NCBI RefSeq assembly: GCF_001280565.1
Contig: NZ_LGRO01000001.1
Coordinates: 434,001-498,000, forward strand
DNA from: Sulfobacillus thermosulfidooxidans
GTDB taxonomy: Bacteria; Bacillota; Sulfobacillia; Sulfobacillales; Sulfobacillaceae
DNA length: 64,000 nucleotides
Reading direction: 5' to 3'
This document shows, piece by piece, positions 51,894-62,578 of the stretch. The position numbers were made by a program, and so were the translations under genes. Under the pieces are notes generated by a model. That model did not search any database, was not told where the DNA came from, and was given only the letters and a program-made list of their open reading frames with translations. Position 1 is the stretch's first letter. Each line of letters opens with the position of its first letter.

Positions 51894-52205
51894 TTATCCG
51901 TGAAAATGGAATACTTCAGGAATGATGTGCATAGAATTTCCCTGCTCGTCAGTCATTAAAATGTCAGCCATGTACTCCTGCCATTTTTTATTGGTCGGAT
52001 GGCTAGACAAAATTTGCATGGCTTCAGTAAAATCACTGACCTCCATATAGGCGAAGAGGGTATTTCCGTACATGAAGATACTATACGTCTGTATCCCTAC
52101 TGCCTTAAAAGCCCGTAGTAGTTCTGGATAGACATGCTGATGGCGAATTTGATACTCTTTTTCGGTTCCAGGATGGATCTTTAAGACAAATCCCACGCGT
52201 TGCAC
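51894..52205 (-). CDS. rhaM: L-rhamnose mutarotase
   Basis: A 103-residue protein, the usual RhaM length of about 104. It interconverts the anomers of L-rhamnose in the cytoplasm. Family features are VGFVLKIHPGTEKEY, the catalytic-site histidine and tyrosine in HQHVYPELL, GIQTYSIFMYG, LFAYMEV and the tryptophan in KKWQEYMADI. A GTG at 52205 is preferred, with GGAGGTG six bases upstream; the ATG at 52220 overlaps that ribosome site. It follows the MFS permease gene by about 30 bases and shares its transcript, next to the divergent L-rhamnose catabolic operon. Confidence 0.85.
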   Translation of the reverse strand: MQRVGFVLKIHPGTEKEYQIRHQHVYPELLRAFKAVGIQTYSIFMYGNTLFAYMEVSDFTEAMQILSSHPTNKKWQEYMADILMTDEQGNSMHIIPEVFHFHG

Positions 52206-52236
52206 AGGTTCCACCTCCATAGTAACGGGGAAATAT

Positions 52237-53574
52237 TTACGCCATAGATTTCACTGGATTAATTTCTTCGAGGGTCTTGCCACTTGTTCGAGGTCCAAAT
52301 AGACCTCCTACGATGAGGTTGTAGGTGAACATGAGGGTAATCATCAAGGCAACTGCCTTAAAGCCTCCAATAGCGGCCGTCACAACCGGGAGGTAAAAAC
52401 TCCAAATGCCTAATATGAGACGCATAATCGACCATAAGAAACCTTGGGCAGTATTGCGAATTTCAGTAGGAAATAATTCCACGGACCAAATTCGTTGTAA
52501 TGGCCATAAACCGATACCTTGCCCGACGCCGAATAAGATAACGTTGGCATACGCGACAAACGGATTGGTGATGGGAGCAAATAACAAGATAAAGAAGGCC
52601 AGGGCACATAAGAACGAGCTAATCGCATAAAGCACGCGTCTATCAATGCGATCATTTAGTGGCATAAAGACAAACACGACCGCTAAAATGGCTAATAAAA
52701 AATAGAGAATTTCCATCAGGTCAGAGGTTGTGGCCTTTGTTGCACCAATTGTTTTAAAAATGTAGGGGAAGAAGAATCCGTATGTGCCCGCAGGTATACC
52801 CCATAATACATAAATTGGGGTGATAAACAGTAACCTTTTTACGTTTGTCCGTTGAAATAAATCTTTGAAACTCATTTTAGCGGAGGTCGCTGGTTGTGGA
52901 GCGAGGGGGACAGTAATTTCCTGTTCTAAAAAAAGGTTTTCAGTTTTTCCATGGCTATACGCCCAGCGAGGTGATTCGACGAGGGAACGCCGTAATAAAT
53001 AAGTTGCCAGAGCGACAATGAATAGACTTCCAAATAAAAGACGCATGCCGAGTAACCCGAGGGGATTAAGTGCCAAGGCTAATAAGAGAATGACAATGGG
53101 ACCCACATACCAAAATATGTTTGTCATTCCCATCAATTTCCCTCGGGCTCTTTTGGGGGCATACTCGGCTATGAGAGACCATGAAGTCGGAACGTCTGCT
53201 CCCACTGCAAAACCCATAACAAGGTAGCCGGAAATTAACATGAAGGGACTTAAAGCAAAAATTACGAGGAGGGTGCCAAACATGTAAAGAAGCAAATCGA
53301 TATTGTAAATGAATTTGCGGCCAAATCGGTCACCTAAAAATCCGGCAACAAAAGCTCCTAGGGCGGTAGAAATGCCATTAGAGCTGAAGGCTGCAATGAG
53401 CCCGACAAGGGATAGACTCATATGAAAATATTTAATCCATAATAGTAATGCCACACCGCCGGCTACGATGGACCCTGCATCCAAATAATCCCCCATGCCG
53501 GATAGAACCGTCCACCACCAATGTTTCCCGGTTAATTGCGAATCGTCAATGTTCGTAAATACGGAGTGGGACAT
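52237..53574 (-). CDS. MFS sugar transporter (probable L-rhamnose permease)
   Basis: A 445-residue protein with 12 predicted membrane segments. MFS motifs are GFLGDRFGRKFIYNID after TM2, AEYAPKRARGKLMG after TM4, PLNDRIDRRVLYAI after TM8 and ELFPTEIRNTAQG. AAGGAGG lies before the ATG. It is co-transcribed with rhaM and lies beside the IclR gene and the L-rhamnose catabolic operon, so it probably imports L-rhamnose; this is inferred from context. An AGTTCATAACGAACT palindrome lies upstream. Confidence 0.8.
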   Translation of the reverse strand: MSHSVFTNIDDSQLTGKHWWWTVLSGMGDYLDAGSIVAGGVALLLWIKYFHMSLSLVGLIAAFSSNGISTALGAFVAGFLGDRFGRKFIYNIDLLLYMFGTLLVIFALSPFMLISGYLVMGFAVGADVPTSWSLIAEYAPKRARGKLMGMTNIFWYVGPIVILLLALALNPLGLLGMRLLFGSLFIVALATYLLRRSLVESPRWAYSHGKTENLFLEQEITVPLAPQPATSAKMSFKDLFQRTNVKRLLFITPIYVLWGIPAGTYGFFFPYIFKTIGATKATTSDLMEILYFLLAILAVVFVFMPLNDRIDRRVLYAISSFLCALAFFILLFAPITNPFVAYANVILFGVGQGIGLWPLQRIWSVELFPTEIRNTAQGFLWSIMRLILGIWSFYLPVVTAAIGGFKAVALMITLMFTYNLIVGGLFGPRTSGKTLEEINPVKSMA

Positions 53575-53709: not shown

Positions 53710-54492
53710 TCATGATTGCGGTGTTCGCCATGCTTCTGGGTCTGTGGCTCCACATTCTTGAGCAATGAGATGGCTGTAGCGAGTAATCGTTTGAACCATG
53801 CGGTCTCGATGAGAGGGACTAAATCGGTCTTTTGGGACCGAAATACTTAAGGCCGCCATGACGTGGTTGTTCATTCCCAAAATAGGAACAGCGACACACC
53901 GAATATCCGGGGAATATTCGCCCCAGTCTGTGGCATATCCGTCTATTCGAGTGACATCAAGTTTCTCTAACAGTTTTTGCAGGGTAGGGGTGGTGATAGA
54001 CGTATAAGTGGGCAACTTATCGGGATATAGTCGGGTGACCTCGGTTCTTGGCAACGCGGCTAGGATAGCTTGGCCAATGCCGGTAGCATAGGCTGGAAGA
54101 CGAATCCCGACATGAGACGCTAACTGTAAAGGATGGCTGGACTCAACTTTTGCGACATACATAACGTTGCCTTGGTCCAAAATGGCTAATTGAACTGTCT
54201 CGTTTAACTCGTTGCGAATAGTTTGTAAGTACGGCCACGCTACAGGAACAATTTGAATACCTTGAGCCCATGTCGATGCCCATTCCCATATTCTGCTGCC
54301 CAAACTGTAACGCTTGGTTACGTGATTATATGTTAGAAGCCGTTGTTGGGTCATTGTTGTCAATAATTCATGTAGGCTGCTTTTGGGTAATTGGCTCGTT
54401 TCCAGCAGCTCCGAAAAGGTTAAGCCGGGAGGATGAGCAGATACTATTTCTAAAATGTCTGCGACGCGAAGTGCAGATTTTACGGAATTCAA
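53710..54492 (-). CDS. IclR-family regulator of the rhamnose locus
   Basis: A 260-residue IclR protein: N-terminal winged helix (SALRVADILEIVSAHPPGLT, SQLPKSSLHELLTTMTQQRL) and effector domain (about 80-250). The start is TTG at 54492 with TAGGAGG 6 bases upstream; this matches the family N-terminus, while the long open frame to 54810 runs through the divergent promoter region and is not coding. It sits between the MFS-rhaM unit and the divergent catabolic operon, and shared motifs occur before both, so it is the probable rhamnose-responsive regulator. Confidence 0.85.
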   Translation of the reverse strand: MNSVKSALRVADILEIVSAHPPGLTFSELLETSQLPKSSLHELLTTMTQQRLLTYNHVTKRYSLGSRIWEWASTWAQGIQIVPVAWPYLQTIRNELNETVQLAILDQGNVMYVAKVESSHPLQLASHVGIRLPAYATGIGQAILAALPRTEVTRLYPDKLPTYTSITTPTLQKLLEKLDVTRIDGYATDWGEYSPDIRCVAVPILGMNNHVMAALSISVPKDRFSPSHRDRMVQTITRYSHLIAQECGATDPEAWRTPQS

Positions 54493-54692: not shown

Positions 54693-54705
54693 GGAGGCGT
54701 TGGAT

Positions 54706-55494
54706 TTGTACAATGTTTGGGTTGAAGAGGTTGCCGATTTGGGTAAAGTTCCTGGGCCGGAAATATTTTGGATGGCGCGTTTTGGAGAATGGTTGCCCCT
54801 GAAGATTCATGTTCTTTTAATAGTCGGTGAGGGACGTACCATTTTAGTGAATACAGGTCCGCCGTTAGATTATTTGGATCACATGAACAGCGTGTGGCGT
54901 GAAGAGTTGGGGGATCAGGCCCATATTACTGTGCAGCCATCTCAACATATCGAAACCGTGCTCAGCCGTCATGGCATATCGTGTGAACAGGTCGATACCA
55001 TCATTGTCACCCCGTTACAGGCGTATGCGGATGGTAATATTGATAAGTTTCCGAACGCTACGATTTGTCTTTCACGTACCGGATGGGTTGATTTGTGTGC
55101 TCCGCGATTTTTCGATCCACGACGCCATATGGCTATTCCAGATCGGTTACTTCAATATCTGATGTTTACGGCGTGGCCAGAGAAACGGGTTCGTCTGTTA
55201 AAAGATGAAGACTATATTGCACCGGGACTCCACACGATCTGGGTCGGAACGCATCATCGGAGTTCTTTGGCTGTCATGGTGTCCACGGCTCGGGGCCTGG
55301 TGGCGTTTAGTGACATCGTTTTTTACTATGAAAATATTGAAAGAAATCATCCGCTGGGAATTCAGGAGAGCATGGAAGAATGTCGCATTGCTTACCAGAT
55401 GCTGAGAGATAAAGCCGACGTCGTCGTTTCCCCGTACGATCCATCGACTATGACGCGATTTCCGCAGGGGGTCATAAGCGTTGCCACCGAATAG
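54706..55494 (+). CDS. Metallo-beta-lactamase-fold protein lacking the HxHxDH motif; candidate lactonase
   Basis: A 262-residue protein resembling AHL-lactonase-type MBL-fold hydrolases: LIVGEGRTILVNTGPP near 40, VDTIIVTPLQAYADGNIDKF where the family has VxLTHLHxDHxGN, WVGTHHRSSLAVMVSTARGL where GHTPGHQ is usual, and AFSDIVFYYEN. The first three zinc ligands of HxHxDH are replaced (T-P-L-Q-A-Y-A-D), so it cannot bind zinc in the standard way. Start TTG at 54706 (GGAGG 8 bases upstream); TTG at 54700 is too close to that site. It is first in the rhamnose operon, where the pathway requires an L-rhamnono-gamma-lactonase that no other gene supplies. Confidence 0.75.
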   Translation: MYNVWVEEVADLGKVPGPEIFWMARFGEWLPLKIHVLLIVGEGRTILVNTGPPLDYLDHMNSVWREELGDQAHITVQPSQHIETVLSRHGISCEQVDTIIVTPLQAYADGNIDKFPNATICLSRTGWVDLCAPRFFDPRRHMAIPDRLLQYLMFTAWPEKRVRLLKDEDYIAPGLHTIWVGTHHRSSLAVMVSTARGLVAFSDIVFYYENIERNHPLGIQESMEECRIAYQMLRDKADVVVSPYDPSTMTRFPQGVISVATE

Positions 55495-55530
55495 ACTGGT
55501 ACGGTGAATTCAAGGAGAGGGCGAACAGTG

Positions 55531-56526
55531 ATGAAAACGTTAACGTGGACTGCTAATGAGACGATGAGCATTTTATCGGTTCCCGAGTCGATGCCGGAGC
55601 CGGGATGGATTGCATTGCGGGTCGCGGGGGTAGGTATTTGTGGCTCTGAGCTTTCTGGTTACTTGGGACACAATGAACTACGAAAACCGCCGTTAATCAT
55701 GGGGCACGAGTTTTCCGGAGTGGTTGAGGATGTCGGTGACGGGGTAACAAACGTTAAAATTGGCGATTTAGTCACCGCCAATCCCTTGGTAACGTGTGGA
55801 AAATGCCTCCATTGCTTGCAGGGAGAGCGGCAACGTTGCGACTCGCGCCGCATTATTGGGATTGATTTTCCGGGGGCTTACGCGGAGCGTGTTGTGGTTC
55901 CGGCTCATCAATGTTATTTGGTAAAAGAGCCCATTGACGGGGCCCTTGTTGAGCCGCTGGCGTGTGCCGTTAGAGCCGTCGGACTCGCCCGGTTAAAAGT
56001 CGGGGATACGGCGGTCGTCATCGGAGCCGGCATCATAGGACTGATGACAGTACGGTTACTGGAATTATCAGGGGCTGGACGCATTGTCGTTGTCGAACCG
56101 AATGACAAACGCTTAAAGATAGCCCAACTTTGGGGTGCGACTGAAATAGTGCCTAATCTGGATGCATTGGTCACAGATAATCGCACCAAGGGTGTGGATT
56201 GTGTGATCGATGCGGTGGGCTTGTCGGTGACCCGGCGGGATAGTTTGAATGTACTCCGTCGAGGAGGCCGAGCGGTCTGGATTGGACTTCATGAAGCTTT
56301 AACCCATCTCGATGGGAATCAGATCGTTCGTGACGAACTGGAAGTGCGCGGTAGCTTTTGCTATACCGATGATGAATTCATCCGTGCAGTGCGTTTGATT
56401 AATTCGCAACGATTTCTTCCTTTAAACCGTCAATGGCTCGATGTCAGATCTGTCGAAGAAGGGCCTACGGCGTTTAAAGAATTAGTCAGTGGCTCCCCAT
56501 TTGCCAAAATCATCCTAACTTTTTAG
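55531..56526 (+). CDS. Zinc-dependent MDR dehydrogenase (probable 2-keto-3-deoxy-L-rhamnonate dehydrogenase)
   Basis: A 331-residue medium-chain dehydrogenase. Catalytic zinc residues are in [13 protein letters not shown] and [15 protein letters not shown], the structural zinc cysteines in [15 protein letters not shown], and the NAD site is [15 protein letters not shown]. It most likely oxidises 2-keto-3-deoxy-L-rhamnonate to the 2,4-diketo compound. Such an MDR-type enzyme has been characterised from Sulfobacillus thermosulfidooxidans, whereas proteobacterial pathways use an SDR protein. Start ATG 55531 or the adjoining GTG 55528 (AAGGAGAGG upstream). It is followed by the hydrolase for its product. 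Confidence 0.85.
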
Positions 56527-56613: not shown

Positions 56614-57510
56614 ATGAAGCTGGCCAGTGCCCTCATTAAAGGGCGTGAGCAGGTGGTCTGGGTTGCCTCGCAGGGCTATGTATCGTTAGTGGACTTAGCA
56701 GCATATTACGGGAAAAAAATCAATCCTTTCACCATGGAGCAATTGATGCAAGATGCGGACCGATTTCATTATTGCCAAGACCTAATTCAAAGAGCTCTCA
56801 CGGATCAACTGGTGTGGGATACCCCGATTGATAAATTATTGGCGCCTGTGCCTTATCCAAAAAAAATTCTATGCGTGGGGCTAAATTATCGTCCTCATGT
56901 GCGAGAGTCTCAAATGGAAATACCAGAGTATCCGGTATTATTTTCGAAATATCCCAACGCTGTCGCGGCATCCGGCGATTTGATTCATCCGCCTCGGGAT
57001 GCTCGAGAGATGGATTACGAGGCGGAACTCGTTCTGATTATCGGGCGAACGTGTTCGCACGTCACGGAAGACACCGCTTTGGATCATGTATTCGGTTATT
57101 GTAATGGCAATGACATTTCGGCTCGCGACTTGCAATTCCGTACGGGGCAATGGGTATTAGGCAAGAGTTGCGATGGATTTGCGCCGATGGGTCCTTATGT
57201 CGTAACGTCTGAAGATGTTTATGATCCCGATAATTTAGAGATTATTGGGAAACGAAACGGGGAAATCGTTCAACATGCCAACACCCGCGAAATGATTTTT
57301 TCATGCCGATATCTTATCAGTTACATTTCTCATTATATGACGCTCCATCCCGGTGATGTGATATTTACGGGCACTCCTGAAGGGGTGATTTTGGGACAAC
57401 CCATCAGTGACAGAAACTGGTTAAAACCTGGCGAAACTCTTACGGTATCCGTCGAAGGACTGGGAGAATTGATAAATGAAATGGGAACACCGAAAGATGA
57501 CAACCAGTAA
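56614..57510 (+). CDS. Fumarylacetoacetate-hydrolase-family enzyme (probable 2,4-diketo-3-deoxy-L-rhamnonate hydrolase)
   Basis: A 298-residue FAH-family protein. Visible are CVGLNYRPHVRES, the metal ligands in REMDYEAELVLIIG, GYCNGNDISARDLQ, the GKSCDGFAPMGPYVV segment and the TGTPEGV signature. In the diketo-hydrolase branch of L-rhamnose degradation this family cleaves 2,4-diketo-3-deoxy-L-rhamnonate to pyruvate and L-lactate. Genes for the preceding dehydrogenase and the following SDR and dehydratase flank it on the same strand. The ribosome site is weak (GGGGG about 8 bases before ATG), as is usual inside this operon. Confidence 0.85.
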   Translation: MKLASALIKGREQVVWVASQGYVSLVDLAAYYGKKINPFTMEQLMQDADRFHYCQDLIQRALTDQLVWDTPIDKLLAPVPYPKKILCVGLNYRPHVRESQMEIPEYPVLFSKYPNAVAASGDLIHPPRDAREMDYEAELVLIIGRTCSHVTEDTALDHVFGYCNGNDISARDLQFRTGQWVLGKSCDGFAPMGPYVVTSEDVYDPDNLEIIGKRNGEIVQHANTREMIFSCRYLISYISHYMTLHPGDVIFTGTPEGVILGQPISDRNWLKPGETLTVSVEGLGELINEMGTPKDDNQ

Positions 57511-57540: not shown

Positions 57541-58302
57541 ATGGCATTGACAGGAAAAGTGGCGGTTGTCAGCGGGGCCTCCCGTGGTATTGGTCGTGCG
57601 ATCGCCATACGCATGGCCCAGGAAGGGGCCCGGGTAGTCATTGATCATCCCGGAGATGATGACGCCGCGTTTGAAACAATGTCGGAAATTAAAAAATTTG
57701 GTGGTGAAGTGATTAGTGTTCAAGCCGATGTATCAAGCTCCACAGAGGTGGAATTTCTGTTTCGAAAAACTCTGGAAACATATCATACTGTAGACATTTT
57801 AGTTAATAATGCCGGAATTTGTCCGTTTGTCGATTGGTTTGAGGTGACCGAGGATTTATGGGATCGTGTCCACGCCATTAATTTAAAGGGGACGTTCTTA
57901 TGTTCCCAATATGCCTCGAAAATCATGCGCGACCATCATCACGGTGGAAGAATCATTAGCATCAGTTCTATTTCGGCCTTAGTGGGAGGCGGATTACAAA
58001 CCCATTACACTCCCACCAAGGCGGGAATTCGATCCCTTATGCAATCGTTGGCCATTGTCCTGGGTCCTTATGGTATTACCTGTAATTCTATTCTCCCCGG
58101 CAGTATCCTAACCGATATCAATCGCGAGCATTATGCGGATAAGAAAATTTTCGAACGGGATGTGAACCGAATTCCCTTAGGCCGCTTAGGGAATCCGGAT
58201 GACATCGCTGGGGTCGCGGCCTTTTTAGCTTCAGATGATGCCCGGTATATTACCGGAGCCGATATCCTGGTCGATGGGGGACTGTTTGTGAATTTACAGT
58301 GA
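57541..58302 (+). CDS. SDR dehydrogenase (probable L-rhamnose 1-dehydrogenase)
   Basis: A 253-residue classical short-chain dehydrogenase: cofactor motif GASRGIG (13-19), ILVNNAGIC, catalytic serine in ISISSISAL, YTPTK (Y-x3-K) and the C-terminal ITGADILVDGG. The residue after the second beta-strand (VVIDHPGDDD) favours NAD over NADP. In this operon it would oxidise L-rhamnose to L-rhamnono-lactone, the first step. It could alternatively be a second KDR dehydrogenase; the presence of the MDR enzyme makes the first role more likely. AAAGGGGG lies before the ATG. Confidence 0.85.
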   Translation: MALTGKVAVVSGASRGIGRAIAIRMAQEGARVVIDHPGDDDAAFETMSEIKKFGGEVISVQADVSSSTEVEFLFRKTLETYHTVDILVNNAGICPFVDWFEVTEDLWDRVHAINLKGTFLCSQYASKIMRDHHHGGRIISISSISALVGGGLQTHYTPTKAGIRSLMQSLAIVLGPYGITCNSILPGSILTDINREHYADKKIFERDVNRIPLGRLGNPDDIAGVAAFLASDDARYITGADILVDGGLFVNLQ

Positions 58303-58344: not shown

Positions 58345-59538
58345 ATGAAAAATGCACTGAAAATTGTGCAATTACGAACGTATACATTATCGCAAGCGGG
58401 GGGTGACTATCATGCTCAACATGCGGATCACTGGATTGTGGGAGAAATTGCAACCCCCATGTCCATTTACCCACAATATCGTTCCCGTCGGTCTTCGTGG
58501 GGCCTCGATGTTTTAGGAACGATCGTCGTAGAAATTGAAGCCAGTGACGGTAGTCTGGGATTTGGCGTGAGTACTGGAGGACAAATTGCTTCGTGGATTA
58601 TCGAACATCATTTGTCTCGATTCATTGTGGGGCAAAGTCCATGGAATATTGAGATGATGTGGGATCAAATGTACCGGTCAACTCTTTTCTATGGTCGAAA
58701 AGGGGTGGTCATGAACGCCATATCGGCCATTGATTTGGCTCTCTGGGATTTGCTGGGCCATATTCGCCAAGAACCGGTCTATGCCATGCTCGGAGGGGCG
58801 GTGCGTGACTCGCTACAATTTTATGCTACCGGGCCCAGGCCTGACGTCGCCAAAACATTGGGGTTTATTGGCGGTAAACTCCCCTTGCAATATGGACCGG
58901 CCTCGGGTGAAGAAGGATTACGCAAGAATATTTCGGCGGTTCGTGAAGCGAGAGAGCACGTTGGGGATGACTTCTGGTTGATGCTTGATTGCTGGATGGC
59001 GTTGGATTTACCCTATGCGATGCAATTAGCCGAAGCCATGATCCCCTTTCATGTTAAGTGGATTGAAGAATGTTTTCCACCTGACGATATCTGGTCTTAT
59101 CAGGCATTGCGCCAGGTGCTGAATGGGAACATGTTGGTCAGTACGGGAGAGCACGAAGCGACGCGTTGGGGTTTTCGATTATTATTCGATCATGCGGCCG
59201 CCGATTTTATCCAGCCGGACGTCACCTGGTGCGGCGGACTAACGGAATTAATAAAAATCGCAGATTTGGCGGAAAGTCATGGGGCATGGGTTATTCCGCA
59301 TGGTTCGAGTGTATACAGTTACCACTTTGTTATCACGCGCAATAGCAGCCCGTTTGCCGAATTTTTGATGATGCATAAAGATGCGACGCAAGTCGTGCCG
59401 ATGTTTTCGCCTCTATTGTTGAATGAACCTGTTCCCCATAATGGGCACATGAAGCTTTCTGATAACCCGGGCTTTGGTGTCGAACTAAATCGAGAAATTT
59501 TAAGACCGTTAGGTCACGTTTCCTTGGCGCTGCCTTGA
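58345..59538 (+). CDS. L-rhamnonate dehydratase (enolase superfamily)
   Basis: A 397-residue mandelate-racemase/enolase superfamily protein closely resembling L-rhamnonate dehydratase (RhmD). N-terminal specificity region: SIYPQYRSRRSSWGLDVLGT. Metal-ligand regions: LMLDCWMALDL, WIEECFPPDDIW and VSTGEHEATRWG; catalytic histidine in IPHGSSVYSYHF. It converts L-rhamnonate to 2-keto-3-deoxy-L-rhamnonate. AAGGAGAGGG precedes the ATG. It is the last of the five rhamnose catabolic genes before lutABC, about 140 bases downstream. Confidence 0.9.
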   Translation: MKNALKIVQLRTYTLSQAGGDYHAQHADHWIVGEIATPMSIYPQYRSRRSSWGLDVLGTIVVEIEASDGSLGFGVSTGGQIASWIIEHHLSRFIVGQSPWNIEMMWDQMYRSTLFYGRKGVVMNAISAIDLALWDLLGHIRQEPVYAMLGGAVRDSLQFYATGPRPDVAKTLGFIGGKLPLQYGPASGEEGLRKNISAVREAREHVGDDFWLMLDCWMALDLPYAMQLAEAMIPFHVKWIEECFPPDDIWSYQALRQVLNGNMLVSTGEHEATRWGFRLLFDHAAADFIQPDVTWCGGLTELIKIADLAESHGAWVIPHGSSVYSYHFVITRNSSPFAEFLMMHKDATQVVPMFSPLLLNEPVPHNGHMKLSDNPGFGVELNREILRPLGHVSLALP

Positions 59539-59677: not shown

Positions 59678-60514
59678 TTGCAAAAACGTGTGCAATTGTT
59701 TGTGACCTGCTTGGTAGATCTTGTTCATCCCCAAGCGGCGATGGCGGCTGTCCATGTGCTGGAACGGCGACACGTCTCCGTCGAATTTCCGGAGAATCAA
59801 ACGTGTTGTGGTCAATTTAGCTATAATGCGGGATATCACCACGAGGCTGCGATCTTAGCGAGGCATTTTTTGACGGTTTTCGAAGCCGGAAGTGACGGCG
59901 AACCGCCGGACATTGTGTCCCTATCGGGGTCCTGCGCCGCGATGGTTATCCAAATTTATCCGCAATTATTATATGACGAGGCTTTAGCGGAGGGTGAACC
60001 TGAAGAGATGGCTGAAAGCTGGAAACACCGGGCCGTGCAATTGGGCCAACGTCTCCAGGAATGGACGCTGTGGTTGGGACAGCATTTTCCTTCGGAATCC
60101 GTGACGACACCGAAACTCCCTGTGGCCTATCATTTGGGCTGTCATATGCGTCGTTTGTTGCCAAGTGCGAAGGACACGGCACAAATTTTGGGGCACTACG
60201 GCATCGAAGCCATAGAACCTGACGATGCGGACCAATGTTGTGGGTTTGGTGGAACGTACAGTTTTACGGAACCGATTATCTCGACCACGTTAGCGGATGA
60301 GAAATGGCAACACCTCGATCAATTACGCCAGAGTACGGGGGCCCTGTGCTTGACCAGTGCGGATCTGGGATGTCTTCTCCATCTGAAAGGCCGTTTCATG
60401 CGGCAAGGCTATACATTCCCAGCGTGTCATGTCGCGGAATTGGTGGATTTGGCAGATCGCAAACGTCTGACCGCGGAACGGATTCAAGCGACCGGATTCC
60501 AAGGAGGCCGATAA
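59678..60514 (+). CDS. lutA: L-lactate oxidation protein LutA (LldE)
   Basis: A 278-residue protein with two CCG (cysteine-rich) domains, of the LutA/LldE group. First domain: FVTCLVDLVHP and NQTCCGQFSYNAG. Second: YHLGCHMRRLL and DQCCGFGGTYSFTEP. These bind iron-sulfur clusters. LutABC oxidises L-lactate to pyruvate and feeds electrons to the respiratory chain. It starts with TTG (AAGGA about 7 bases upstream) and its stop directly abuts the lutB start. Following the rhamnose genes, it would consume the L-lactate released by the diketo hydrolase. Confidence 0.88.
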   Translation: MQKRVQLFVTCLVDLVHPQAAMAAVHVLERRHVSVEFPENQTCCGQFSYNAGYHHEAAILARHFLTVFEAGSDGEPPDIVSLSGSCAAMVIQIYPQLLYDEALAEGEPEEMAESWKHRAVQLGQRLQEWTLWLGQHFPSESVTTPKLPVAYHLGCHMRRLLPSAKDTAQILGHYGIEAIEPDDADQCCGFGGTYSFTEPIISTTLADEKWQHLDQLRQSTGALCLTSADLGCLLHLKGRFMRQGYTFPACHVAELVDLADRKRLTAERIQATGFQGGR

Positions 60515-61966
60515 ATGGCGGGACAACTCCCTTATGATCATCGTCCCTGGCCGCAAAGACGCACCCAGGCGTTGCACGATGACACGATGCGTCACACGAT
60601 CGGTTTTGTGACACGACGCTTTACCGTCGCCAAACGAGACGTGTACCGCCAACATCCAGAGCTTGAAGCTTTCCGCCTTTTGGCCCTTCACGAAAAGCGG
60701 CAAGCCATTCGTGATCTCCCGGAACTCCTCGAGACACTCCGAGAGCGGATTGAAGCGCATGGCGGACATACCTATTGGGCGACGAATGCCCACGACGCCG
60801 TTCAACGTGTGCTGAACATTGCGCATGATGAGCAGGTCCGTTTGGTGATCAAAAGTAAATCGATGGTGACTGAAGAAATTGAATTAAACCGATCCCTGGA
60901 GCAAGCCGGCATTATGGTCCGGGAAACCGATCTCGGAGAATACATCATCCAATTAGCGAACGAGAAACCGTCTCATATCTTAGCGCCTGCTGCTCATCGG
61001 AACCGTCATCAAATCGATGAATTATTCGCACAGGATGCGGCCCGGCACGGGATGATGCCACCTTCAAGCGATGACATTCCCGATTTGACCGCGTATGCCC
61101 GGCAACGATTACGGCAAGAGTTTCTGACCGCCGATATGGGCGTCACGGGGGGGAATTTCTTGGTGGCTGAAACCGGGACCCTCGTTCTTATTACCAATGA
61201 AGGCAATGCCGATATGGTGACCACATTGCCGCGCATTCTCGTGTCGATTGTGGGCGTCGAGAAAATTGTCCGCGACTGGACCTCGTTAAATCACATCATT
61301 CAACAGCCGGCGATGAGTGGGATTGGTCGTCATCTGTCGTCGTATACGACCTTCGTTCAGGGCCCCAAAGAGGTGGGATCTGCCGATGGCCCGGAGCAAT
61401 GGCATGTTATCTTGGTGGACAACGGGCGCATGGCTTTGCGGGATACGGCATTTGAGGAAGTGTTAAGCTGTATCCGGTGTGGCGCATGTTTAAATGTCTG
61501 CCCCGTCTTTCGTGAAGTGGGAGGGCATGCATATGGCAGCGTGTATCCGGGCCCCATTGGCATCGTCGCAACCCCGTTATTGACCGATTTCACGATGTTG
61601 TCGGAGTTGCCTTCTTCGCTGTGCACGCTGTGCCATGCGTGCGAAGAAGCGTGTCCCATGGAGATCCCCTTACCCCAATATATTGTGAAGTTGCGGCAGA
61701 TCAAGGTTAGACGCAAAATGACGCCGGGTCTGTGGGATTGGACGATGAGAACATGGGCTCGCTTTTGGGCAACACCCGGGGGATATCGGCGTGCGGTGCG
61801 TATCGCTCGCTTGGCTGCGCGCTTATCTGGTCAACAACAAGCTCTGCACGTGGCACCCGGCATATTTGCGGGATGGTTTGAAACCCGAGACATGCCCGCT
61901 GTGGCCAATCAAACTTTTCATGAATGGTGGCGAAAGCGGCATCGACCCATAGCAACAGGTCCATGA
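60515..61966 (+). CDS. lutB: L-lactate oxidation iron-sulfur protein LutB (LldF)
   Basis: A 483-residue protein. The N-terminal LUD domain spans about residues 70-290 (TAYARQRLRQEFLTADMGVT, GTLVLITNEGNADM). Two ferredoxin-type motifs follow, CIRCGACLNVCPVF near 318-331 and CTLCHACEEACPME near 369-382, and a DUF3390-like C-terminus (TPGLWDWTMRTWARFWATPG) completes it. AAGGAGG precedes the ATG, which begins on the base after the lutA stop. It is the electron-transferring subunit of the L-lactate-oxidising complex. Confidence 0.9.
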   Translation: MAGQLPYDHRPWPQRRTQALHDDTMRHTIGFVTRRFTVAKRDVYRQHPELEAFRLLALHEKRQAIRDLPELLETLRERIEAHGGHTYWATNAHDAVQRVLNIAHDEQVRLVIKSKSMVTEEIELNRSLEQAGIMVRETDLGEYIIQLANEKPSHILAPAAHRNRHQIDELFAQDAARHGMMPPSSDDIPDLTAYARQRLRQEFLTADMGVTGGNFLVAETGTLVLITNEGNADMVTTLPRILVSIVGVEKIVRDWTSLNHIIQQPAMSGIGRHLSSYTTFVQGPKEVGSADGPEQWHVILVDNGRMALRDTAFEEVLSCIRCGACLNVCPVFREVGGHAYGSVYPGPIGIVATPLLTDFTMLSELPSSLCTLCHACEEACPMEIPLPQYIVKLRQIKVRRKMTPGLWDWTMRTWARFWATPGGYRRAVRIARLAARLSGQQQALHVAPGIFAGWFETRDMPAVANQTFHEWWRKRHRPIATGP

Positions 61967-61984
61967 CGGGAGGATGATGCGGTA

Positions 61985-62578
61985 ATGCCTGTAACGCAAC
62001 AATTTGATTACCAATGGCAAAAGAATGGGGCAAAAATTTATCATATTGCCAACGCGACGGAGTTGCCCGAAGTCTTGCAACAGATTATCCCGTATGATGA
62101 TCGGAATAACGCGAGGGCCAACACGATTGTGGTCACGGGACTGCCAGACGCGTGGGGACAGGTTCTGCGACGACTCTGGGAGCCTGACCAACTGGTTGTG
62201 TGGAAATCGGACGAAGATGCCGAAGCATTTTGCCGGAACTGCGCCCAAGCGAGCGTAGGCATTACCGGGTGTGCATGGGCGGCGGCCGATACCGGGAGCG
62301 TGACTCTGTATGGGACCCGCGCTAACAGCTTGCTCCCGAGTTTATTGCCCCCGGTTCATGTTGTCATCTTATCAGCCTCACAGATATTTCCAACCTTTGC
62401 AGAAGGGTTGGCCTATGTACAGTCCTCACTTCAAGAGGGTCCACACTCCGTTTCGCCGCCGTTCATCAAGATTATTGCGGGTCCCAGCATGACAGGGGAT
62501 ATCGAAGGGCAGCTCATTACGGGCGTTCATGGGCCCAAAGACCTTTATGCCATCGTGATCGAGAAGAGTTTGGTCTGA
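61985..62578 (+). CDS. lutC: L-lactate oxidation protein LutC (LldG), LUD domain
   Basis: A 197-residue LUD-domain protein with VGITGCAWAAADTGSVTLYG near 90-110 and the C-terminal signature AGPSMTGDIEGQLITGVHGP. It is the third component of the LutABC complex. It lies 18 bases after lutB, with GGGAGG upstream of the ATG. The three genes are certainly one transcript. Confidence 0.9.
   Translation: MPVTQQFDYQWQKNGAKIYHIANATELPEVLQQIIPYDDRNNARANTIVVTGLPDAWGQVLRRLWEPDQLVVWKSDEDAEAFCRNCAQASVGITGCAWAAADTGSVTLYGTRANSLLPSLLPPVHVVILSASQIFPTFAEGLAYVQSSLQEGPHSVSPPFIKIIAGPSMTGDIEGQLITGVHGPKDLYAIVIEKSLV

Follow-up and report, generated by a model that had tools for sequence, protein, structure and literature searches.

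A metallo-beta-lactamase-fold protein without the HxHxDH motif, proposed as the L-rhamnono-lactone hydrolase of Sulfobacillus thermosulfidooxidans

The first gene of an L-rhamnose operon of Sulfobacillus thermosulfidooxidans encodes a protein, here called MBLx, which is predicted to adopt the fold of metallo-beta-lactamase-type lactonases and in which most of the usual metal ligands are replaced by other, strictly conserved residues. From its sequence, its gene context and its modelled structure, we consider that MBLx is probably the aldonolactone (L-rhamnono-lactone) hydrolase of the pathway, with a rebuilt and probably non-dimetal active site; the lactonase activity, the substrate, and the absence of metal are all points that we infer. 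Positions given below refer to the window, i.e. the whole stretch of 64,000 nucleotides that was analysed.

The gene and its operon

The open reading frame of MBLx occupies 54700/54706-55494 on the forward strand of the window and gives 264 residues when read from 54700. The likely translation start is the TTG at 54706, because GGAGG, the likely ribosome-binding site (54693-54697, forward strand, read from the sequence), lies 8 bases upstream of it and because the N-termini of the homologues correspond in the alignment to the residue encoded there. A misread frame or a wrong start was ruled out by the ORF calls, the spacing of GGAGG, and the homologue starts. Residue numbers (E21, H185, Y246, etc.) are counted from 54700.

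MBLx heads a run of genes on the same strand. Ten bases separate it from the next one, a Zn alcohol dehydrogenase of the MDR type identified by profile match (55504-56526), and an enzyme of this type has been characterised in S. thermosulfidooxidans, as described in PMC5674754. Downstream, all on the forward strand, lie a fumarylacetoacetate-hydrolase (FAH) family protein, likely a 2,4-didehydro-3-deoxy-L-rhamnonate hydrolase (56614-57510; NF053535, E 6.2e-63, below the cut-off), an SDR, likely L-rhamnose 1-dehydrogenase (57541-58302; NF053807, 340.6 bits vs a cut-off of 400), the L-rhamnonate dehydratase (58345-59538; NF011968, 640 bits, above the cut-off of 393), and LutA/LutB/LutC-like lactate oxidation genes (59678-60514, 60515-61966 and 61985-62578, together 59678-62578; profiles and ORFs). 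The last of these is presumably LutC, a label that we give by position, and its place is kept in the synteny comparison. On the reverse strand are a divergent IclR-type regulator (53710-54492; profile match), whose start near 54492 we place from homology and an upstream AGGAGG, an MFS sugar transporter (52237-53574; profile match), and an L-rhamnose mutarotase, RhaM (51894-52220; PF05336, E 1.1e-25). This gene set is that of the diketo-hydrolase route, which converts L-rhamnose into pyruvate and L-lactate, and all steps of the pathway except the lactonase can be assigned within the cluster from sequence.

The earlier note had stated that all known lactonase families are missing. This is true of the cluster and, for SMP-30 (PF08450) and PF10282, of the whole genome, where profile searches found neither; it overlooks three Amidohydro_2 proteins encoded elsewhere in the genome. 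Since these three are unlinked to the cluster and none of them (0/3) matches an NCBIfam lactonase model, and since SMP-30 and PF10282 are absent, it is unlikely that the lactonase is supplied from elsewhere in the genome. A hidden second lactonase in the cluster was rejected as well, with Amidohydro_2 found in 0/23 of the Sulfobacillia loci that contain MBLx. In the relatives, the SMP-30 and PF10282 matches lie on contigs other than that of the dehydratase (compared by eye), and among the PF04909 (Amidohydro_2) matches listed, one (G005:C79) shares its contig, where over 14 kb separate it from the cluster.

Fold and altered metal site

The match of MBLx to Pfam Lactamase_B is below threshold (E 0.0094), that to DUF6839 is also weak, and the Pfam search found no match to PF04909 or PF08450 in the protein. 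The NCBIfam AiiA model gives an E-value of 2.8e-8 with 33.3 bits, far from its cut-off of 375, and the NCBIfam matches among 75 family members are to lactonase models only. The profile of the alignment of these 75 sequences matches the AHL lactonase of Pseudomonas poae (8x78, E 1.6e-15), AiiB (3.3e-12), and AiiA (1.3e-9). The AlphaFold2 model of MBLx, computed with the 75 family members as input, has a pLDDT of 96.6 and a pTM of 0.93, and can be superposed from end to end on AHL lactonases and 4-pyridoxolactonase (Z 27-31, rmsd 2.1-2.7); its top structural neighbours are lactone hydrolases without exception. The structure prediction, compared with AiiA-type lactonases as the earlier note had suggested, therefore bears out the AHL-lactonase-like fold claimed there, and the model places MBLx in the alpha-beta/beta-alpha metallo-beta-lactamase fold.

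The best match in both sequence and structure is 8x78 (Z 30.7, rmsd 2.1 over 249 residues), which shares with MBLx a D-I-V-[YF]-x-Y-x-N-I-E-R stretch. At 21% identity, 8x78 retains THMHFDH, the later ligands, and the Tyr three residues past the bridging Asp, whereas the MBLx family has TPLQAYA, Tyr246, and Phe208. The lactonases AiiA, AiiB, GcL and AaL and 4-pyridoxolactonase also resemble MBLx in fold over the whole length (Z 27-29). Unlike MBLx, all five are metal enzymes with HxHxDH; for GcL this is described in PMC11423328. In pentose pathways, the SMP-30 sugar lactonases perform the class of reaction proposed here for MBLx, according to PMC9795676, and no sequence relation between them and MBLx was found. 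The Haloferax pentonolactonase is placed in SMP-30 as well, and so is no precedent for a lactonase of the metallo-beta-lactamase fold.

The site was analysed in the alignment of 75 family rows, from which the named loci L062, L063, L109, L129, and L137-L140 were excluded as lying on short contigs, truncated, or frame-broken; the 107 altered rows of a larger alignment contain the same sequences fetched twice. Where metallo-lactonases have THxHxDHxGN, MBLx has TPLQAYADGN (T104-N113, 55009-55038, forward strand), with P105, Q107, and Y109 invariant. The ORF translation and the alignments thus confirm the earlier reading of HxHxDH as P-L-Q-A-Y-A, and the motif is altered in 75/75 rows. The later GHTPGS segment is replaced by H185-H186-R187-S188-S189 (55252-55266, forward strand), and the metal-binding His position is taken by H185 in the MAFFT family alignment and by H186 in the profile alignment to GcL and AiiB. 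Asp205 (55312-55314, forward strand) is aligned as the retained counterpart of the bridging Asp of metallo-lactonases. The earlier description of GHTxGH as altered is therefore right as to the letters, but a His still stands at the metal-binding position and an Asp at the bridging one. The last His ligand has become Tyr246 (YDP for HDx; 55435-55437, forward strand), so that only two of the seven usual metal ligands are kept (one His, 185 or 186, and Asp205) and five are replaced.

Three residues past the bridging Asp, at a position that we take to be Tyr194 in AiiA, the alignment shows an invariant Phe, Phe208 (55321-55323, forward strand). The GcL counterpart is Tyr223, a tyrosine conserved in nearly all such lactonases according to PMC11423328. 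Near the N-terminus, Glu21 (54760-54762, forward strand), in the invariant VxGPE motif, is unchanged in 75/75 rows, and the residues invariant throughout the alignment include E21, P105, Q107, Y109, R142, H185, H186, R187, S189, D205, F208, N212, E223, E227, and Y246. Because the metals and the conserved Tyr both appear to be lost, AHL-lactonase chemistry is not transferable to MBLx. Neither metallo-lactonase nor AHL lactonase is a proper label for MBLx, since it lacks HxHxDH, the full set of later ligands and the Tyr, and scores below the family cut-off; in operon position and modelled fold it nevertheless appears lactonase-like.

Conservation and distribution of the family

The altered site is common to all close homologues (about 36-90% identity), archaea included, and HxHxDH occurs only in relatives at about 32% identity or less. 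A motif-free search found a homologue in 28 of 61 relatives; TP-x-Q-x-Y and HHRSS are carried by 26/26 of the aligned homologues with at least 42% identity, whereas 12/12 of those at about 32% or less retain HxHxDH. Among 300 archaeal genomes, the strong matches are altered in 7/7 cases, and HxHxDH is found in 6/6 of the checkable weak matches (8 fetched). In a tree of 99 sequences, built by a quick method with the site columns removed and with long branches reported among the canonical rows, a single branch (SH-aLRT 98) parts 81 altered from 18 canonical rows. The dN/dS between MBLx and its nearest relative is 0.06, which shows purifying selection.

The earlier note had pointed out that homologues retaining HxHxDH would make MBLx a decayed copy. 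The loss of HxHxDH taken alone, and a truncated copy in one relative, G002, would fit such decay of a metallo-lactonase; the dN/dS value, the 81 rows which share the altered site and fall on a single branch, and its occurrence in both bacteria and archaea contradict it, and the motif is absent from every aligned homologue above about 32% identity. We therefore regard decay as ruled out for practical purposes, and the altered site, being conserved and confined to a single branch, as due neither to chance nor to decay.

Some copies differ in other ways. The G002 copy (G002:C51:836-1615, L024) lies on a contig of 4.5 kb and is cut short by an in-frame TAA, so that the part with Tyr246 is lost. 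At L034:9226-10868 (also L072), a tandem second copy adjoins the main one, with 49% identity to MBLx and the same altered site. In the Vulcanisaeta drafts L137, L138, and L139 (at about 7.4-13 kb of each locus), MBLx and its neighbours are frame-split at differing places, a pattern that suggests assembly indels and no biological change, and the G168 copy is intact.

The distribution of MBLx follows that of L-rhamnonate dehydratase. In the 61 relatives, own genome included, a dehydratase with at least 59% identity is present in 25, and MBLx (at least 49% identity) in 23 of these 25 vs 0 of the 36 others (Fisher 8e-15, kinship ignored). In the two exceptions, the dehydratase lies near a contig end and the position of MBLx would fall beyond the edge. 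Both genes are on the same fetched stretch in 21 of the 23 loci, the other two being contigs of 3.0 and 4.5 kb. Five of the 300 archaea have a dehydratase at 61% identity or more, and MBLx is present in all five, vs 2/295 of the rest, a comparison whose Fisher test likewise ignores kinship; in both of these extra genomes, a dehydratase homologue with 34-40% identity lies within about 4 kb. The link is not one of mere neighbourhood, since MBLx and the dehydratase are apart in four of the five archaea (in G132 by 1 Mb, otherwise on separate contigs). A Zn dehydrogenase adjoins MBLx in 5/5 of them.

A scan of named genomes used the patterns TPLQAYAxG[NG] and VPGPE[VI][FY]W, which favour the altered motif, a bias of which the counts from the 61 relatives and the 300 archaea are free. 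Of the 80 named loci, 34 have a member of an enolase-superfamily dehydratase cluster and 47 an SDR; a further cluster, in which the protein tested is an alpha-L-rhamnosidase, has members in 14. The profile matches in the operon, the synteny and co-occurrence in the relatives, and the archaeal counts indicate that MBLx is encoded with the non-phosphorylative L-rhamnose pathway.

Other phyla fill the same slot differently. In 8 proteobacterial dehydratase loci, chosen as environmental isolates among 23 plasmid records in which a close dehydratase was found (L179 and L180 being unannotated and analysed by tblastn only), MBLx is found in 0/8 and Amidohydro_2 in 6/8, annotated as amidohydrolase family in five. 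These Amidohydro_2 proteins, of a family unrelated to MBLx, have as neighbours L-rhamnonate dehydratase, an SDR and IclR, and in most cases also FAH. We take the LRA2-type L-rhamnono-gamma-lactonase to be a member of the amidohydrolase family. Of 87 other loci of the MBLx family, part of which are named duplicates of the same places, two (L111 and L115) have an amidohydrolase related to those. At L115, from Acidobacteria, MBLx, an Amidohydro_2 protein that looks secreted, an MFS transporter, and a dehydratase of 64% identity follow in a row, and a simple one-for-one swap is weakened there because MBLx and Amidohydro_2 lie together. A comparison of displacement in Actinobacteria found a close dehydratase in 1/396 genomes, namely the centre genome itself.

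The family is also found in other sugar contexts. Nocardioides, Pimelobacter, and Herbidospora have members in genomes without a close rhamnonate dehydratase. In Acidobacteriaceae (L110, L114, L115, L123, L124, L129, and L140), the gene is paired with a 2-hydroxyacid dehydrogenase and a glycosidase resembling apiosidases, and in most cases also with an HpcH/HpaI aldolase, which suggests use on another sugar, e.g. apiose. In five actinobacterial loci (L112, L116, L118, L126, and L130), the members have a HHRAS/TPLQLY variant, and their clusters also contain a Zn dehydrogenase, a hydrolase of the FAH family, and an IclR regulator; a search of three of these genomes (L116, L118, and L126) found no close dehydratase. 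In Ignavibacteria (L089, L099, and L106), the family adjoins an SDR and a nickel-dependent racemase-like (LarA) protein. To judge from the gene neighbourhoods, other lactones are the probable substrates of the family in Acidobacteriota with apiosidase and aldolase neighbours and in those Actinobacteria that have no close dehydratase.

Proposed mechanism and alternatives

We propose that MBLx descended from metallo-beta-lactamase-fold lactonases and that its active site was rebuilt, the dinuclear metal centre having gone with five of its seven ligands and an invariant polar set having taken its place. Water would be activated by His185 or His186 together with Asp205, the carbonyl oxygen would be held by Arg187 with Tyr109/Tyr246, and the sugar hydroxyls might be bound by Gln107, Glu21, Glu223, and Glu227. 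These roles are suggested by the invariance of the residues, rather than by geometry.

A different metal site would also account for part of this pattern. One His of the old site and Asp205 are invariant, as are several acidic and His residues, so that MBLx could be a metal-dependent lactonase with another, probably mononuclear site, in which new ligands, e.g. His186, Tyr246, Asp247, and Glu223, join the retained His and Asp205. We nevertheless think this rather unlikely, as the four ligands of the first motif have become P, Q, Y, and A/T/S, and Tyr, Gln, and Pro are poor substitutes for His and Asp. It is unlikely, too, that MBLx catalyses another step, such as isomerisation of the 1,5- to the 1,4-lactone, or acts on another lactone or ester of a sugar pathway, with the ring opening spontaneously or by another enzyme. 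The apiosidase, aldolase, and FAH neighbours and the genomes without a close dehydratase are in its favour, as is the spontaneous opening of lactones, which is faster in heat and hence possible in thermophiles according to PMC9795676. The lactonase-like fold throughout, the tight co-occurrence with a pathway otherwise missing only its lactonase, and the amidohydrolase that occupies the slot elsewhere all speak for ring opening by MBLx instead.

Pseudoenzymes often retain their fold and bind ligands. The loss of most ancestral metal ligands would agree with a non-catalytic lactone or sugar sensor or an accessory protein, but this is very unlikely in view of the many polar residues newly fixed across bacteria and archaea, the separate IclR regulator in the cluster, and the lack of any fused DNA-binding or signalling domain. 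The hydrolase reading itself is weakened by the three genomic Amidohydro_2 proteins, which could supply the lactonase, by spontaneous lactone opening, by the members without a close dehydratase, and by L115 with both MBLx and Amidohydro_2. Of the options raised by the earlier note, a metal-independent or differently metallated lactonase still appears best supported by the conserved site, the modelled fold, the first-gene position, and the co-occurrence with the dehydratase; a sensor or spontaneous opening appears less so.

More tentatively, the proteins marked by VxGPE, TPxQxY, HHR[SA]S, D, and YD may form a family of metal-free aldonolactonases, an old lineage of the metallo-beta-lactamase fold that serves oxidative pathways of rare sugars (rhamnose, probably others) in bacteria and archaea, with catalysis by side chains replacing the dinuclear metal centre. 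In the open literature we found no paper naming MBLx or a metal-free metallo-beta-lactamase-fold lactonase, and a prior mention is possible. The automatic label "N-acyl homoserine lactonase family protein" borne by distant relatives could mislead if extended to the MBLx family, whose members are unlikely to be quorum-quenching enzymes. If our reading is true, MBLx would be the lactonase that had been missing from the L-rhamnose pathway of several Thermoproteota and of Sulfobacillus-type bacteria, and would represent a natural experiment in which a member of a superfamily defined by its metal site has abandoned that site.
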